A stretch of DNA of 64,000 nt from Gemmatimonadota bacterium. Lineage in GTDB: Bacteria > Gemmatimonadota > Gemmatimonadetes > Longimicrobiales > Gaopeijiaceae. The notes beneath the pieces were generated by a model, which worked only from the letters and a program-made list of their open reading frames with translations, searched no databases and had not been told where the DNA came from. Each line of letters opens with the position of its first letter. The stretch's first letter is position 1. Below, piece after piece: positions 6,206-38,247 of the stretch. A program made the translations under genes and the position numbers. The stretch covers positions 1 through 64,000 of the forward strand of contig VXQO01000053.1 of NCBI GenBank assembly GCA_009838975.1. Direction: 5' to 3'.

Positions 6206-7465
6206 CTACGATTCGCGGGTGGGTCGGTCCGCCACCTCGCACGGCACATTCCCGTCGACGACGCGCAACCGGAATCTCTCGGCGGGGACAAAGTCACCGA
6301 CGCCCCGCAGCAGGCGGCCATTCGCGTCCAGCGGCACGGCATATCCGCGGGCCAGGGTGGACAGGGGGGAAAGCGCCTCCATGGCCGCCGCGGCTTCCTT
6401 CAGTCGCGCACTGCGGCGCCGGATCCGCCCCTGCATCGCCTGCGAGATGCCCACGCGACCGCCCTGCAGCCGTTGCCGATACGCACTCGTCAGCCTGCGC
6501 GCACCACCGAACAGCCGCTCCCGGGCCCGGTCGAGACGCCAGCGCCTGGCACGCGCCTGGCCCGACAGCGCCCTGCCGAGCCGCTGCCCGAGCGCTGCCA
6601 ATCGTCGCCCCAGCGCCCGGCCATCCGGTGCGACCGCCTCGGCGGCCGCGGACGGGGTCGCCGCACGCAGATCCGCCACCAGATCGCAGATCGTGACGTC
6701 CGTCTCGTGCCCCACCCCCGAAACGACGGGCACGGAGCAGGCCGCGACGGCGCGCGCCACCGGCTCCTCGTTGAATCCCCACAGGTCCTCGATCGAGCCG
6801 CCCCCGCGGGCGACGATCACGACGTCGACGCCTTGGGCTGCCACGGTGTCGATCGCGGCGGCGATCTGCCTCCCGGCGCCCGGCCCCTGGACGCCCGTGC
6901 CGCGCACCAGCACCCGCACCCACGGCGCCCGCCGCGCCGTCACCGCGAGAATGTCACGCAGCGCCGCGCTGGTGGCCGAGGTGACCACCCCGACCGTGCG
7001 CGGGAAGTCGGGCAGGGATCGCTTGCGGGCCGGATCGGTGAGGCCCTCGGCGTCGAGCCGCTGCCGCAGACGCTCGAAGGCGAGCTTCCACATCCCCTCG
7101 GCGCTCTCCGCTTCGAGCCTGGTCACCACGAACTGGTAGCTGCCCCTGGCTTCGTAGAGGGTGAGGCCCCCGAACACGCGCAGCGTCATCCCCTCTTCCG
7201 GGTCGGTCGGCAGCGTGGCGGCCTCGCGCCGGAACATCACGCAGCGGATCTGGGCCGACCTGTCCTTCAGGGTGAAGTAGCAGTGCCCGGACCGGTGGCG
7301 GTTGAAGTTCGCGACCTCGCCAGTGACCCACAGCTGCGGCAGCGTTTCCTCGAGCAGGCGGCGCACGGCGCGGTTTACCTGGGAAACCGTCCACACCTTC
7401 GGGGCCGGCGGGCCCGGCGGCTCCGTGGTCCGGTCCGCGAAGAGATCCAGGTTGCGTGCCTTCAA
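6206..7465 (-). CDS. xseA: Exodeoxyribonuclease VII large subunit
   Basis: Catalytic subunit of exonuclease VII. The 419-residue product has the N-terminal OB-fold (VSQVNRAVRRLLEET, WVTGEVANFNRHRSGHCYFTLKD) at about residues 28-115 and the catalytic domain with DVVIVARGGGSIEDLWGFNEE and VSGVGHETDVTI at about 230-275. I place the start at TTG (7463-7465): it lies inside the folD stop as a TTGA overlap and has GGAAGG seven bases upstream. The C-terminus ends in the usual ARGYAV / VRLRVVDG-like region. Reading further upstream runs into folD out of frame and is not coding. Confidence 0.95.
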   Translation of the reverse strand: MKARNLDLFADRTTEPPGPPAPKVWTVSQVNRAVRRLLEETLPQLWVTGEVANFNRHRSGHCYFTLKDRSAQIRCVMFRREAATLPTDPEEGMTLRVFGGLTLYEARGSYQFVVTRLEAESAEGMWKLAFERLRQRLDAEGLTDPARKRSLPDFPRTVGVVTSATSAALRDILAVTARRAPWVRVLVRGTGVQGPGAGRQIAAAIDTVAAQGVDVVIVARGGGSIEDLWGFNEEPVARAVAACSVPVVSGVGHETDVTICDLVADLRAATPSAAAEAVAPDGRALGRRLAALGQRLGRALSGQARARRWRLDRARERLFGGARRLTSAYRQRLQGGRVGISQAMQGRIRRRSARLKEAAAAMEALSPLSTLARGYAVPLDANGRLLRGVGDFVPAERFRLRVVDGNVPCEVADRPTRES

Positions 7466-8409: not shown

Positions 8410-10002
8410 TCAGCGGGCGAAGTCGACGGCTCGGGTCTCGCGGATGACGACCACCTTGATCTGTCCGGGGTACTGCAGCTCGTTCTCGATCTTGCGCGCC
8501 ACCGCTTCGGATATCCGGGCCATGCCTTCGTCGTTGACGCGGTTGGGCTCGACCATGACCCGGAGTTCGCGCCCCGCCTGGATCGCGAAGCAGCGCTCCA
8601 CGCCCGGGTGATCGGTGGCGATTTCCTCGAGCTTCTCAAGGCGCTTCACGTAGCCCTCGAACATCTCGCGCCGGGCCCCGGGGCGGGAGCCGCTGATCGC
8701 GTCGGCCGCCGTTACGAGCCACGCCTCGGGGTAGCGGTGGGGTTCCTCGTCGTGATGTGCCTTGATCGAATTGAGGACGAGATCGGGTTCCTTGTAGCGC
8801 TTGCACAGGCGGTACCCGAGTTCCACGTGCGTAAGCTCCTGTTCGTGCGTCAGCCCCTTCCCGACATCGTGCAGGAGGCCCGCGCGACGGGTGAGCTGGA
8901 CGTTGAGTCCCATTTCGGCGGCCATGTTCCCCGCCAGCAACGCCACCTCACGGGCGTGGGCCAACTGGTTCTGACCGAACGAGGTCCGGAACTTCAGCCT
9001 CCCGAGCACCTTGATGATCTCGGGGTGGACGCTGTGGATGCCCAGCCCGTAGAGCGCTTCCTCGGCGGCCTCGCGCATTTCGGTCTCCACGTCCTGCTCG
9101 CTCTTGGCCACCACCTCCTCGATCCGTCCTGGATGAATGCGCCCGTCCTCGATCAGCCGGGACAGGGCGAGGCGCGCCACCTCGCGGCGGACCGGGTTGT
9201 AGCCCGAGAGCACGACCGCCTCGGGCGTGTCGTCGATGATCACGTCGATTCCGGTGGCCTGCTCGAAGGCGCGGATGTTCCGCCCCTCCCGGCCGATGAT
9301 CCGTCCCTTCATCTCGTCCGACGGAAGCTGCACCACCGAAACGGTCAACTGGGCGGTCTCGTCGGCGGCCATCCGCTGGATGGACATGGCCAGCACCTTT
9401 TTGGCCTCGCGGTCGGCCGTTCGCTGCGCCTCCTCCTTGATCTCGCGCAGCTGGTTGGCGGCCTCGGCGCGGGCCTGGTCGGCCATCTCGGCGACGAGTT
9501 CCTCCTTCGCCTCGTCAGCGGTGATCCCGGCCAGTCCCTCCAGGCGCTCCCGCGCCGTGGCCAGGGCCCGGGTCACGTCCTCCCGCTTCTCGGCGACCTC
9601 CCGCTCCCCCGCCTTCAGCGTCAGCGCACGGTCTTCCAGCCTGCGGGCACGGTCATCCAGAGAATCCTGCCGCCGGTCGAGCTGGTCGGACTTGCGGTCG
9701 GCCGCCTCGGCGCGCTCGACGAGCCTTCGCTCGCCCCGCTCGACCTCTTCCCTGCGGCGACTCTCTTCCTGCTCCCAGGATTCCCTGAGACGCAGGCTCT
9801 GTTCCCTGCCCTGCAATTCGGCGGTGCGGCGAAGATTGAGGACTTCCTCCTCTGCCGCCTTGCGAATACGCGACGCATCATCCCGCGCCGCTTCTGTTTC
9901 CCTGCGCTGTCGCGCGCGCTCCCGGCCCCTGCCCAGGAGGTATGCCACAACCGCGGCAAGCACCGCCGCGCCGACCGCCAGGGACAAACCCAGCGGACTC
10001 AT
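8410..10002 (-). CDS. rny: Ribonuclease Y
   Basis: Membrane-anchored endoribonuclease that starts mRNA decay. The 530-residue product has an N-terminal membrane helix (about residues 4-24), a long charged coiled coil (about 25-200), a KH RNA-binding domain containing GRIIGREGRNIRAFE (about 230-245), and an HD domain whose LLHDVGKGLTHEQELTHVELG carries the metal-binding His-Asp pair (near 365). The C-terminal VKVVVIRETRAVDFAR-type ending is typical. The length matches the family. Gemmatimonadota, like Firmicutes, commonly use RNase Y. It lies between soxD (161 bp upstream) and folD. Confidence 0.97.
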   Translation of the reverse strand: MSPLGLSLAVGAAVLAAVVAYLLGRGRERARQRRETEAARDDASRIRKAAEEEVLNLRRTAELQGREQSLRLRESWEQEESRRREEVERGERRLVERAEAADRKSDQLDRRQDSLDDRARRLEDRALTLKAGEREVAEKREDVTRALATARERLEGLAGITADEAKEELVAEMADQARAEAANQLREIKEEAQRTADREAKKVLAMSIQRMAADETAQLTVSVVQLPSDEMKGRIIGREGRNIRAFEQATGIDVIIDDTPEAVVLSGYNPVRREVARLALSRLIEDGRIHPGRIEEVVAKSEQDVETEMREAAEEALYGLGIHSVHPEIIKVLGRLKFRTSFGQNQLAHAREVALLAGNMAAEMGLNVQLTRRAGLLHDVGKGLTHEQELTHVELGYRLCKRYKEPDLVLNSIKAHHDEEPHRYPEAWLVTAADAISGSRPGARREMFEGYVKRLEKLEEIATDHPGVERCFAIQAGRELRVMVEPNRVNDEGMARISEAVARKIENELQYPGQIKVVVIRETRAVDFAR

Positions 10003-34786: not shown

Positions 34787-34961
34787 TCGCCTACGGGCGG
34801 TATGGGCGTTCGCTTCATTCCCGTTTGGGCCCGCAGGCGTCTCCGCGGGCGCGCTCGTGGTCTGCGAACACGGTCGTCCGATTCGACCAATCGGTTGTCA
34901 CGCCAGTGTTTGTGCGCGCATACGCCCCCGTCCTGGCCAACAGACGGCAATCGCGAGCGCC

Positions 34962-34991
34962 TTGTCACTGCGCTGGTTCGACCGGTAGCAT
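34962..34991 (+). promoter_or_regulatory. Possible promoter giving a leaderless transcript
   Basis: TTGTCA (34962-34967), 18-bp spacer and TAGCAT (34986-34991) point at the ATG at 34997, only five bases past the -10. No ribosome binding site precedes that ATG, so the message could be leaderless. Confidence 0.35.
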
Positions 34992-34996
34992 TCCCC

Positions 34997-36379
34997 ATGT
35001 CCCAACGGAGCATGCCAGCGGCCGGAAGCGCTACGCCCCGCGCGATCGCGCTTGTCGCGGCCGGGTTGGCCACGTGTGCGCTTCTCGCCGTGGTTGCCGG
35101 CGCGGTGTTTCCGCAGGCTCCCCGCGACGGACACCCGGGCGGTTTCCAGGCCTCGGAGGCCGCGATCGGCAGCGCCGCCCTCTCCCATCCCTCCGACACC
35201 GTCCTGCGCGTGACCTTCCTGGATGTGGGCCAGGGAGATGCCGTGCTGCTGCAGGCGCCCGAGGGGCAGACCGCGCTCGTTGATGCGGGGCGGTACGACG
35301 TGGTGCCGCTTCTGACGGAGATGGGCGTGGAGCGGATCGATCTGCTGGTGGCGACGCATCCGCATGCGGATCACATCGGGGGGATGGCGCGCGTGATCGA
35401 GTCGATGCCGGTGCGCTTCTACATGGACAACGGCGATCCGCATTCGACGGCGACCTACCGGCGGCTGCTGGGTGCCCTCGATGCGCGGCCGGAGATCACG
35501 TACCTGGAAGCGCTGCCGAGGACGATTTCGCTGGGGAGTGCCGACATCGAGGTGCTGCCGCTGCTGCCCCGTGGCACGACGGATCACAACAACCGGTCCG
35601 TAGCGCTGGTGGTGCGTTTCGGAAGCTTCACCGCGTTCCTGAGCGGCGATTCGGAGATCCGGCAGCTGACGGACCTGGTGGGCCGGGGTGTCGTTCCCCG
35701 GATGACGCTGCTGAAAGCGCCCCATCACGGAAGCGACAACGGTTTTACGCCGGGTTTCCTGCGGACCGGACGGCCCGAGGTGGTCGTGATCTCGGTGGGC
35801 AGGAACAGCCATGGGCACCCCAGGCCAGCCGCGTTGAGCGCGTACGCGGGAGGCGGGGCGAGGGTGTTTCGTACGGACATCGACGGGCACGTAGCCATAC
35901 AGGGGTACCGGGATGGTGGGTACGGGGTGGCGCACGGGCAGCAGCTGGCGTCGCTGAGGACGGAAGGAACGGGCGACCGGGACCGGGTTCGGGTGGGGGA
36001 GGCGGTTGGCCCGGCAGCGGTCGTCGGTGGCGGCGCGGCCGCCGCGACCGGTGCCGGGGTACGGGTGAGCGTGCACGCCGACGCGCCCGGGGACGACCAC
36101 CGGAACCTCAACGGAGAATACGCGGTATTGCAGAATCAGGGGAGCCGGGGCCTGGCCATCGGCGGGTGGACGCTCTGCGACGGCGCCAGCCATTGCTTCC
36201 GGTTTCCGGCGGGAGCGGTTCTGGAGGCCGGTGGCACGGTCGTCGTCTACACCGGTTCGGGACGGCCCGACGGCGAACGTTACTACATGGGCATGGGGAG
36301 GGCGGTGTGGAACAACAACGGCGATACGGCGACACTGCGCGACGGAACAGGCGTGACGGTGGCCGTGTTCCGGTACTGA
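34997..36379 (+). CDS. ComEC-like metallo-beta-lactamase with lamin-tail domain
   Basis: A 460-residue exported protein. Residues about 15-38 form a signal or anchor helix. The metallo-beta-lactamase domain begins VTFLDVGQGDAVLLQ (73-87), with metal ligands HPHADH at 121-126 and later KAPHHGSDNG and FLSGDSE. This matches the stand-alone version of the ComEC C-terminal domain, a nuclease-like fold. After a Gly/Ala-rich linker, a lamin-tail domain (LNGEYAVLQNQGSRGLAIGGWTL to RAVWNNNGDTATLRD, about 335-455) follows, as in secreted nuclease-like proteins. The ATG at 34997 is preferred over 65 extra upstream residues of Arg-rich nonsense. A DUF3006 gene follows. Confidence 0.85.
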   Translation: MSQRSMPAAGSATPRAIALVAAGLATCALLAVVAGAVFPQAPRDGHPGGFQASEAAIGSAALSHPSDTVLRVTFLDVGQGDAVLLQAPEGQTALVDAGRYDVVPLLTEMGVERIDLLVATHPHADHIGGMARVIESMPVRFYMDNGDPHSTATYRRLLGALDARPEITYLEALPRTISLGSADIEVLPLLPRGTTDHNNRSVALVVRFGSFTAFLSGDSEIRQLTDLVGRGVVPRMTLLKAPHHGSDNGFTPGFLRTGRPEVVVISVGRNSHGHPRPAALSAYAGGGARVFRTDIDGHVAIQGYRDGGYGVAHGQQLASLRTEGTGDRDRVRVGEAVGPAAVVGGGAAAATGAGVRVSVHADAPGDDHRNLNGEYAVLQNQGSRGLAIGGWTLCDGASHCFRFPAGAVLEAGGTVVVYTGSGRPDGERYYMGMGRAVWNNNGDTATLRDGTGVTVAVFRY

Positions 36380-36390
36380 GGCGTCGGTAC

Positions 36391-36687
36391 GTGGACAGGG
36401 ATCCGGGCAGCGGCCGGCCAGAGAGCGTCTGGGTCGTCGACCGCATCGAAGGCGCCGTGGCGGTGCTGGTTCGGGATGAGGACGCGCACCATGAGGACGT
36501 GCCCGTGACACTCCTGCCTGCCGGCGTGGGAGAGGGCGCGGTGTTGCGGGTTCCGGAGTTCGGGGACAGCCCGGCCTGGGCGCACGCGACAGTCGACGAG
36601 GAGTTGCGCATGGCCAGACTGCGCGAGGCGGAAGAGGTGCTGGACCGCCTCCGAAGGCGTGACCCCGGTGGGGACGTGGTCCTCTAG
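36391..36687 (+). CDS. DUF3006 domain protein
   Basis: A 98-residue protein starting at GTG 36391 (GAGG nine bases upstream), 11 bp after the metallo-beta-lactamase gene. The core VWVVDRIEGAVAVLVRDEDAHHEDVPVTLLPAGVGEGAVLRV, residues about 13-55, matches the DUF3006 pattern (D-R-I-E-G, then L-P-x-G-x-x-E-G-x-V). The C-terminal part is a charged helix ending RLRRRDPGGDVVL. DUF3006 genes are often next to ComEC-like metallo-beta-lactamase genes. There is no signal peptide, so it is cytoplasmic. Function unknown. Confidence 0.82.
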   Translation: MDRDPGSGRPESVWVVDRIEGAVAVLVRDEDAHHEDVPVTLLPAGVGEGAVLRVPEFGDSPAWAHATVDEELRMARLREAEEVLDRLRRRDPGGDVVL

Positions 36688-36690
36688 CCC

Positions 36691-37122
36691 ATGACAGGAT
36701 CAGGCCGGGCGCGGATCGCCATGAGGTGGACGAGCGCGGTTGTTGCGCTCGTGCTGCTGCCGTCCATTGCGCCCGACCTGTTCGACCTGGGGTGTCCCCA
36801 CCACCTCGGGCATGCGGATGCGGAGGAGCACGCTCACGAAGCGGTCCACCACAGCGCAGCCGCGGACCACGCCAGCGCCGGTGAGCATATCACGGCGCTC
36901 GCCGCGAGCCACGACGCCCACGACGGCACCCTGCCCCCGCCCTGCACATGCGTCGGCAGCTGCCCTACATCCGCCGGGCCCTCCGTTGCCGCGGGTCCCG
37001 TCGCGACCGCCCCGGCGATTCAGGCCACCTCCCCAGCCCGGGCCACCCCCACCGTCGACCGCGCTCCGGCCCGGCGCGCCCCCTACACCCTGCCCTTCGC
37101 GAACGGTCCTCCTCTCGTGTGA
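36691..37122 (+). CDS. His/Cys-rich exported protein, possible metal binder
   Basis: A 143-residue protein with a short hydrophobic N-terminus (WTSAVVALVLLPSIAP, about 13-28), likely a signal peptide. Residues 37-77 hold 11 His in pairs and His-x-His patterns (GCPHHLGHADAEEHAHEAVHH), followed by CTCVGSC at 85-91 and a Pro/Ala-rich tail ending in LPFANGPPLV. Such composition is typical of small periplasmic metal-binding proteins of copper- or zinc-responsive operons. It is not a family I can name. It starts 3 bp after the DUF3006 stop and lies 87 bp before a Met/His-rich outer-membrane protein. Metal binding is inference from composition and neighbour. Confidence 0.75.
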   Translation: MTGSGRARIAMRWTSAVVALVLLPSIAPDLFDLGCPHHLGHADAEEHAHEAVHHSAAADHASAGEHITALAASHDAHDGTLPPPCTCVGSCPTSAGPSVAAGPVATAPAIQATSPARATPTVDRAPARRAPYTLPFANGPPLV

Positions 37123-37209
37123 ATCCGGCGCCGACCCCGGCGCGCGCTGCCGGTGCGTATGCCCGGCGAAACAGCAATTCAACGGATTCAATCAAGAGAG
37201 GATACTCAT

Positions 37210-38247
37210 ATGCGCATGTTGGTATGCCTGGGTGCGGCGATCGCGCTTGCGGCCGTCTCGCCGGCACTCGTTCAGGCCCAGTACGAATGGACCTCGTCCC
37301 GTCCGGACGGTCACGCGCCCATCGGTGTCATGGGCGATCACACCCACGAGCACGGCGAATTCATGCTCTCCTACCGCTTCATGCGGATGTTCATGGAGGG
37401 GAACCTCGACGGGAACGACGAACTCGACGTCAGCGAGATCCACCGGAGCTTCATGGTGGCGCCGCTCGACATGACGATGACGATGCACATGGCCGGGCTG
37501 ATGTACGCGCCCAGCGACATGGTCACCCTCCTGGTCATGACCAACTGGCTCGACCAGTCGATGAACCACGAGACGCGCCCCGGCGGCATGTTCGAGGCCG
37601 CTTCGTCCGGGCTGGGCGACACCAGCCTGGGCGCGCTCATTGGCGTCAAGCGGACCGGACCCGTTCGCATGCACCTGAACGCGGGCGTGTCGATCCCGAC
37701 CGGGTCCATCGAGGAGACCGGCGTCAATCCAATGAGCATGGGCCGCGCGGTGCAGATGCCCTATCCCATGCAGCTGGGCTCGGGCACATGGGACTTCACC
37801 CCGGGGGTCACTGTCCTGGGGATGAACGAGAGCGTGTCCTGGGGACTCCAGGCCAGGACCGTCGTTCGGATGGGCGAAAACAGCCGCGGCTACACGAAGG
37901 GCGGCCAGACCGACGCGACACTGTGGTTCGCGGTGAAGCCGGGCGACCGGCTGAGCCTCTCGGCCCGCATGCTCACGAGGACCTGGGGCAACTATTCCGG
38001 TCACGACGAGGCCTACGGCAACCTGATGATGGTCCCCACGGTCAATGAGCAGCGGCGCGGAGGCACGCGCGTCGATCTGCCCCTCGGGTTCAACTTCTAC
38101 TTCCCGGATGGGGCGCTGAGCGGGCACCGGATCGCCGCCGAGTGGCACATCCCGGTCTACCAGAACCTCCAGGGGCCTCAGCTGGCAACCGACTGGGTGC
38201 TGACGATCGGCTGGCAGAAGTCGTTCGCGCCGTTCGGGCACGACTGA
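37210..38247 (+). CDS. Outer-membrane transporter-like protein, Met/His-rich
   Basis: A 345-residue protein with a signal peptide (MLVCLGAAIALAAVSPALVQA) and a beta-barrel-like body. Sequence pattern FMLSYRFMRMFMEGNLDGND, FMVAPLDMTMTMHMAGLMYAPSD and NAGVSIPTGSIEETG matches the family of putative outer-membrane transporters related to the phenol-degradation MetA type. In proteobacteria, as I recall, relatives often sit beside copper-resistance genes. The mature part is unusually rich in Met (for example residues 95-120). It ends in a barrel strand TDWVLTIGWQKSFAPFGHD. The ATG at 37210 has GAGAGG eight bases upstream. Predicted role in metal (copper) handling is inference. Confidence 0.8.
   Translation: MRMLVCLGAAIALAAVSPALVQAQYEWTSSRPDGHAPIGVMGDHTHEHGEFMLSYRFMRMFMEGNLDGNDELDVSEIHRSFMVAPLDMTMTMHMAGLMYAPSDMVTLLVMTNWLDQSMNHETRPGGMFEAASSGLGDTSLGALIGVKRTGPVRMHLNAGVSIPTGSIEETGVNPMSMGRAVQMPYPMQLGSGTWDFTPGVTVLGMNESVSWGLQARTVVRMGENSRGYTKGGQTDATLWFAVKPGDRLSLSARMLTRTWGNYSGHDEAYGNLMMVPTVNEQRRGGTRVDLPLGFNFYFPDGALSGHRIAAEWHIPVYQNLQGPQLATDWVLTIGWQKSFAPFGHD

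Follow-up and report, generated by a model that had tools for sequence, protein, structure and literature searches.

Adjacent genes for a small protein rich in His and Cys and for a Met-rich outer-membrane barrel, found in a Gemmatimonadota contig (VXQO01000053.1), raise the question of whether the first protein captures a metal for the second or controls the second gene in response to that metal. The routes by which copper enters Gram-negative bacteria are still poorly known, and the Gemmatimonadota are a widespread, little-studied phylum with few cultured members. A sequence-only reading of the window (the whole stretch analysed, 64,000 nt) had taken the pair for a means of metal, probably copper, capture or efflux. 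Gene 1 is probably a regulatory leader that senses copper, with gene 2 as its target. On this reading copper controls the production of an outer-membrane channel that supplies the metal; we infer the ribosome arrest, the response to copper, the sign of that response and the transport itself. The reading draws on features evident from sequence: a leader family, its motif and spacing, a cognate hairpin, copper-type partners and a Met-rich barrel.

The gene pair and the leader family

Gene 1 (36691-37122, + strand; 143 aa) and gene 2 (37210-38247, + strand; 345 aa) lie on the same strand, 87 nt apart. The start of gene 2 was placed at an ATG with a good Shine-Dalgarno sequence; the ORF list also offers a GTG at 37153. 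Gene 1 opens with a basic-hydrophobic N-terminus (36691-36789), by eye a likely Sec export signal or anchor, followed by CPHH (aa 35-38) and a His stretch reaching His77 (36793-36921), by CTCVGSC (aa 85-91; 36943-36963), a predicted metal-binding motif of the form CxCxxxC, and by PYTLPFANGPP (aa 131-141; 37081-37113), a putative ribosome-arrest motif. The sequence-only count of 11 His within about 40 residues was accurate, with all 11 in residues 37-77 and 10 in the densest 40-residue span, and the CTCVGSC cluster is real, its Cys at positions 85, 87 and 91 adding to a fourth at position 35. The C-terminal residues are PYTLPFANGPPLV, with LPFANGPP ending 2 residues before the stop codon. Across 16 aligned leaders the CPHH Cys and the three Cys of CxCxxxC do not vary, and L134, P135, P140 and P141 are likewise invariant.

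Neither Pfam nor NCBIfam gave a family above cut-off for gene 1. A known metallochaperone was considered and rejected, as NCBIfam returned no family and Pfam returned YorP alone, a chance match below cut-off (E 0.2). The 5' neighbours are an MBL-fold hydrolase with a lamin-tail domain (ComEC-like, 34802-36379) and a DUF3006 ORF (36397-36687), the stop codon of which lies 3 nt 5' of the leader ATG, and the leader may therefore be cotranscribed with them.

A single-sequence search with gene 1 found it in 16 of 59 relatives, and a profile built from 16 aligned gene 1 homologues matched 124 of 395 Gemmatimonadota genomes, spread over 53 of 138 genera. Leader contexts were taken from the matching loci, including 118 regions; these held 135 leader matches, and exclusion of 3 without a complete C-terminal end left 132. 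The pattern LP-aromatic-x-x-A/G-P-P, or one near it, ends 129 of the 132 leaders, and 1 to 5 residues separate PP from the stop codon in 122. Cys motif and PP lie a nearly constant 47.7 ± 1.1 residues apart (n=121), against 46.9 ± 13.2 for CPHH and the Cys motif (n=77). This uniformity is inflated because the search profile itself includes the motifs; on the other hand, the profile tolerates gaps, and the two spacings differ greatly in their spread. Some relatives are longer than 143 aa. From this conservation LPFANxPP appears to be a candidate arrest sequence.

Two described copper leaders share much of this plan. CutF, the leader of cutFOG in Rhodobacter capsulatus, is reported as a short exported protein with a Cys metal motif, a C-terminal proline motif and a hairpin over the Shine-Dalgarno sequence of the next gene (PMC9973294, PMC8456105); the two motifs are 45-48 residues apart across CutF and the present leaders. 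In both CutF and CruR, 45 residues are given between Cys motif and proline motif (PMC9973294, PMC9426467), and the CutF authors reason that with this spacing the Cys would have only just emerged from the membrane channel by the time the prolines enter the active site (PMC9973294). The CutF proline motif alone caused no stall in a LepB fusion. Under the loose filter for CutF-like proteins, as given in PMC9973294 (fewer than 150 aa, an N-terminal signal, PP in the last 15 residues and a same-strand gene within 1000 nt), gene 1 would count as CutF-like, having 143 aa, Pro140-Pro141 inside its last 15 residues, gene 2 at 87 nt and, judged by eye alone, a signal in its basic-hydrophobic start. It differs from CutF in pairing CxCxxxC with CPHH and a His stretch and in its LPFANxPP end, and the present leaders target outer-membrane transporters and supply proteins whereas CutF targets a multicopper oxidase.

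CruR (DUF2946) of Bordetella pertussis is similarly a copper-type leader, in which 45 residues separate the Cys motif from the proline motif that follows (PMC9426467), and it too precedes an outer-membrane transporter (CrtA/BfrG; PMC12914433). Its Cys motif is CxxC, not CxCxxxC, and it ends in RAPP, whereas gene 1 ends in NGPP and the leader family in A/G/P-PP. The DUF2946 profile (PF11162) gave no match to gene 1 up to E 1 and none in its own genome, and one leader-family member, L094, reached only E 0.11. By profile and by the RAPP motif, gene 1 is not a member of the DUF2946/CruR family. CruR-type leaders ending in RAPP or RGPP form a separate family in the same phylum, DUF2946 matching 7 of 59 relatives; such leaders, with CxxC, were seen at L106-L109, L111 and L112.

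Genes downstream of the leaders

The genes immediately downstream were identified for 125 of the 132 leaders: 32 are of gene-2 type, 77 encode TonB receptors, 6 MbnP, 6 PCuAC and 4 CopC/CopD. Profiles assigned the 32 gene-2 homologues and 67 of the TonB receptors, all within 900 nt of the leader, and Pfam scans of the other 33 complete leaders gave 10 TonB receptors, 6 MbnP, 6 PCuAC with cytochrome c (one of them, L201, slightly below the PCuAC cut-off) and 4 CopC/CopD. Five of the seven leaders with an unnamed first gene are near a contig end. Every nameable downstream gene thus encodes an outer-membrane transporter or a copper-handling protein, and the pairing of the two genes proposed from the window recurs elsewhere in the 32 leaders that precede a gene-2 homologue.

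The MbnP, PCuAC and CopC/CopD genes, which neighbour other members of the leader family and not the present locus, point to copper as the metal, in line with what the sequence-only reading had favoured. Sensing of zinc, nickel or cobalt is quite improbable: His-rich CutF-like proteins can adjoin HupE/UreJ genes, linked to nickel and cobalt, as reported in PMC9973294, but each of the 16 named non-transporter partners here belongs to a copper protein family, and loss of His leaves the Cys motif in place. Such a loss is seen in the L055 leader, 291 nt 5' of a gene-2 homologue, which has lost CPHH (its Cys replaced) and most His and has kept CDCIGKC and LPFANAPP, a natural test of the importance of the His stretch.

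No RND/efflux pump, CopA-type Cu-ATPase or multicopper oxidase gene occurs among the 125 named first genes, which favours supply over removal and makes efflux, one of the two roles first suggested, the less likely. The accompanying remark that the usual CopA/CusABC genes are missing is correct for the neighbourhood and wrong for the genome, other contigs of which carry a Cu-ATPase (TIGR01511, E 2e-176) and a CusA/CzcA-type RND pump (TIGR00914, above cut-off).

The capture role first suggested for gene 1 fares worse. A lasting periplasmic protein that binds copper or zinc and works with the gene 2 barrel would account for the 11 His and 4 Cys, the export signal and the constant partner, and a leader might retain a binding role once released. 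Yet the His part is variable, as the L055 leader illustrates; conservation sits instead in the C-terminal motif, in its distance to the Cys and in the hairpin described below; and the quite different genes that follow one leader family suit a regulator better than a binding partner. We therefore regard a capture protein as improbable. These conserved parts, as far as sequence comparison can tell, indicate a cis-acting regulatory leader.

A hairpin over the gene 2 Shine-Dalgarno sequence

The end of gene 1 is predicted to fold onto the start region of gene 2. The 5' arm (37106-37127), the anti-Shine-Dalgarno strand, consists of the codons of Pro140-Pro141-Leu142, the stop codon and ATCCG, and it pairs with a 3' arm (37183-37203) made of CGGATTCA and the gene 2 Shine-Dalgarno sequence GAGAGGA (37196-37202). 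The hairpin in the window has a folding energy of -49.1 kcal/mol (z -3.53), and none of 200 shuffles was equally stable. It is kept with changed letters in relatives, as TGAGTCC/GGACTC at L068 and as CGCATCTGAGG/CCTCAGATGCG at L079. An Rfam scan of 36300-37500 gave no known RNA family.

Pairing between each leader end and each start region was compared across 99 loci, those with a gene-2-type gene (32) or a TonB gene (67) downstream, the start codons being chosen by script and some perhaps wrong. After double centring, cognate pairing exceeds in strength the value predicted by row and column means by 4.07 kcal/mol (z -11.4; permutation sd about 0.36; 0 of 5000 permutations as strong), with P values that overstate independence because the sequences are related. 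The two sets taken separately gave -5.75 against -0.90 ± 0.66 permuted (gene-2 set, n=32) and -3.27 against -0.20 ± 0.45 permuted (TonB set, n=67), again with 0 of 5000 permutations as strong in either. Five displaced control pairings, with downstream coding sequence or with other leader parts, gave no signal (|z| at most 0.7). The cognate preference is absent in 20 of the 99 loci, clearly so in L069, L070 and L273. A plain rank of cognate duplex energy over 15 loci had been uninformative because close relatives share both arms, and it was replaced by the permutation test.

The Pro-Pro pair begins with CCT in 53 of 132 leaders, whereas of the Pro codons in the preceding 60 residues 96 of 1124 are CCT (odds ratio 7.2), an enrichment expected if that first codon must pair with the Shine-Dalgarno sequence. 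The anti-Shine-Dalgarno strand of gene 1 is formed by the Pro-Pro codons themselves, which may be a difference from CutF. Since the leader end pairs with the start region of its own gene, a ribosome stalled at Pro-Pro should free the ribosome-binding site.

This suggests control at the start region, in contrast to the Rho-dependent termination reported for CruR (PMC9426467). A switch that has transcription, through Rho termination between the two genes, as its sole or main point of action in place of the Shine-Dalgarno sequence is unlikely but carries some weight, given that CruR is of related plan and that the intergenic stretches are variable and sometimes long; against it, the conserved pairing is specific to the downstream start region and absent with the other nearby segments tested, which fits control of translation start.

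Under the preferred reading of gene 1 as a copper-sensing leader acting on translation, a ribosome translating it would stall at Pro-Pro as the Cys/His part leaves the ribosome and the translocon. The stalled ribosome would keep the hairpin open, exposing the gene 2 Shine-Dalgarno sequence and allowing gene 2 to be translated. Copper binding at the Cys motif would act on this stall, most likely by releasing it in the manner of CruR, and gene 2 would be produced under copper scarcity. The leader protein itself would probably have no lasting role.

The low-copper sign is chosen because copper relieves the CruR arrest (PMC9426467), which has been seen in vitro with an E. coli cell-free system (PMC12992588), because the CruR target is reported to be a TonB-dependent copper transporter (PMC12914433), and because the partners in the present family are of supply type. 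CutF has the opposite sign, so that low-copper activation is a choice and the step of which we are least sure after transport itself. In the reverse arrangement copper would prolong the stall, as for CutF, and gene 2 would serve copper removal. CutF, with its hairpin over the Shine-Dalgarno sequence, is the closest mechanical match in anatomy, but the partners are TonB receptors, PCuAC, MbnP and CopC/CopD, with none of the 125 a pump, Cu-ATPase or multicopper oxidase, and we give this arrangement only a minor share of our confidence.

The Met-rich barrel and proposed copper supply

Gene 2 matches PF13557 (Phenol_MetA_deg) barely above cut-off (E 3.3e-5; 24.5 bits against a cut-off of 22). The barrel with clustered Met residues described from the sequence alone is upheld by an AlphaFold2 model built with 13 sequences (pLDDT 71.9, pTM 0.72), which predicts a barrel, and by the composition of the protein, in which 27 of 345 residues are Met, mostly in alternating runs. 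The model resembles the COG4313 channel 4rl8 (Z 23.9; rmsd 2.6 over 254 residues) and FapF (5o65, Z 22.6), with other barrels, chiefly autotransporters, at Z of about 20 and lower. Gene 2 differs from 4rl8 and 5o65 in its 11-12% identity to them, its invariant Met runs, the HTHEHGE motif (aa 44-50; 37339-37359), found in variant forms in leader-bearing copies, and the copper-type leader upstream. By alignment and model the Met runs of the first two strands (M52/58/60/62 and M82/88/90/92/94/98) span 37363-37503, and M52/58/60/62 and M88/90/92/94/98 are invariant among 17 aligned gene 2 homologues. Together with the invariant Cys of the leaders, this marks the composition of the pair as no accident.

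Met content was compared in 51 gene-2-family ORFs of at least 250 aa: the 32 with a leader have 4.8-8.8% Met (median 6.8) and the 19 leaderless ones a median of 1.6% (Mann-Whitney P 1.2e-7), in a sample biased by the choice of loci through a leader or a gene-2 match. L189 carries both kinds, a Met-rich copy with a leader and then a Met-poor copy without one. Among the copies counted as leaderless, L065 (Met 7.7%) lies at a contig end and retains a leader tail, and L081 (4.2%) and L088 (3.8%) are intermediate. An upstream leader was looked for and not found at the fairly Met-rich homologues L280 (6.0%), L279 (5.9%) and L283 (4.5%).

A COG4313 channel of the usual kind, passing hydrophobic or aromatic compounds and with a merely incidental Met content, would agree with the top fold match, with the phenol-degradation origin of the PF13557 name and with the part in hydrophobic molecule uptake ascribed to the COG4313 family in PMC4493636. 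It is nonetheless distinctly unlikely, as Met content distinguishes leader-bearing from most leaderless homologues, including the two copies at L189, and the Met runs are invariant. We favour a supply channel, in which copper or a copper complex would cross the outer membrane through the Met-rich barrel, in a role parallel to that of the TonB receptors behind the same leader type in related families.

More broadly, and with rather less than even confidence, we propose that the Gemmatimonadota have a distinct class of arrest peptides that respond to copper (CPHH...CxCxxxC...LP[FYW]xx[AG]PP-stop), the Pro-Pro codons of which would be both arrest site and anti-Shine-Dalgarno strand, and that one target is a Met-rich channel of COG4313 fold admitting copper without TonB, an undescribed entry route. 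The literature consulted describes no such Gemmatimonadota leader and no copper role for a COG4313/Phenol_MetA_deg channel, though some of the leaders may already be listed, without comment, in the supplements of PMC9973294 and PMC9426467. As far as the literature examined goes, the LPFANxPP class, the dual use of the Pro-Pro codons and the Met-rich COG4313-fold target are novel. If the proposal is true, a pair that would otherwise be annotated as a hypothetical protein plus a putative phenol transporter turns into a copper-supply operon open to experiment, and the profile of the leaders offers a means of finding copper-regulated transporters across the phylum, including many TonB receptors of unknown substrate. 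Metal-sensing arrest peptides would then extend past RAPP, with arrest-site codons doubling as an RNA switch.

Homologues of gene 2 also occur on plasmids (9 annotated records, 5 examined), in contexts that neither prove nor refute a role in copper. The Ruegeria copies have genes for cytochrome c maturation and DsbD-like genes as neighbours, and no such leader was found upstream of them; the Methylocystis copies adjoin nitrate genes. On a Methylosinus plasmid (L103), a Cys-rich leader ending in RAPP lies 139 nt 5' of an ORF at 6780 encoding a 738-aa gene-2-related barrel, which is followed by feoB. Only fragments of gene 2 (21 to 98 residues) are found at L025-L030 and L091, in congeners (G017, G006, G016, G033, G001, G014), as if the gene had repeatedly decayed. 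The L074 homologue (Met 5.7%), from another family and counted above as leaderless, is preceded by a different PP-ending leader, a Cys-rich one with YARPPPSYA (about 9024-9416, - strand), possibly an independent replacement.
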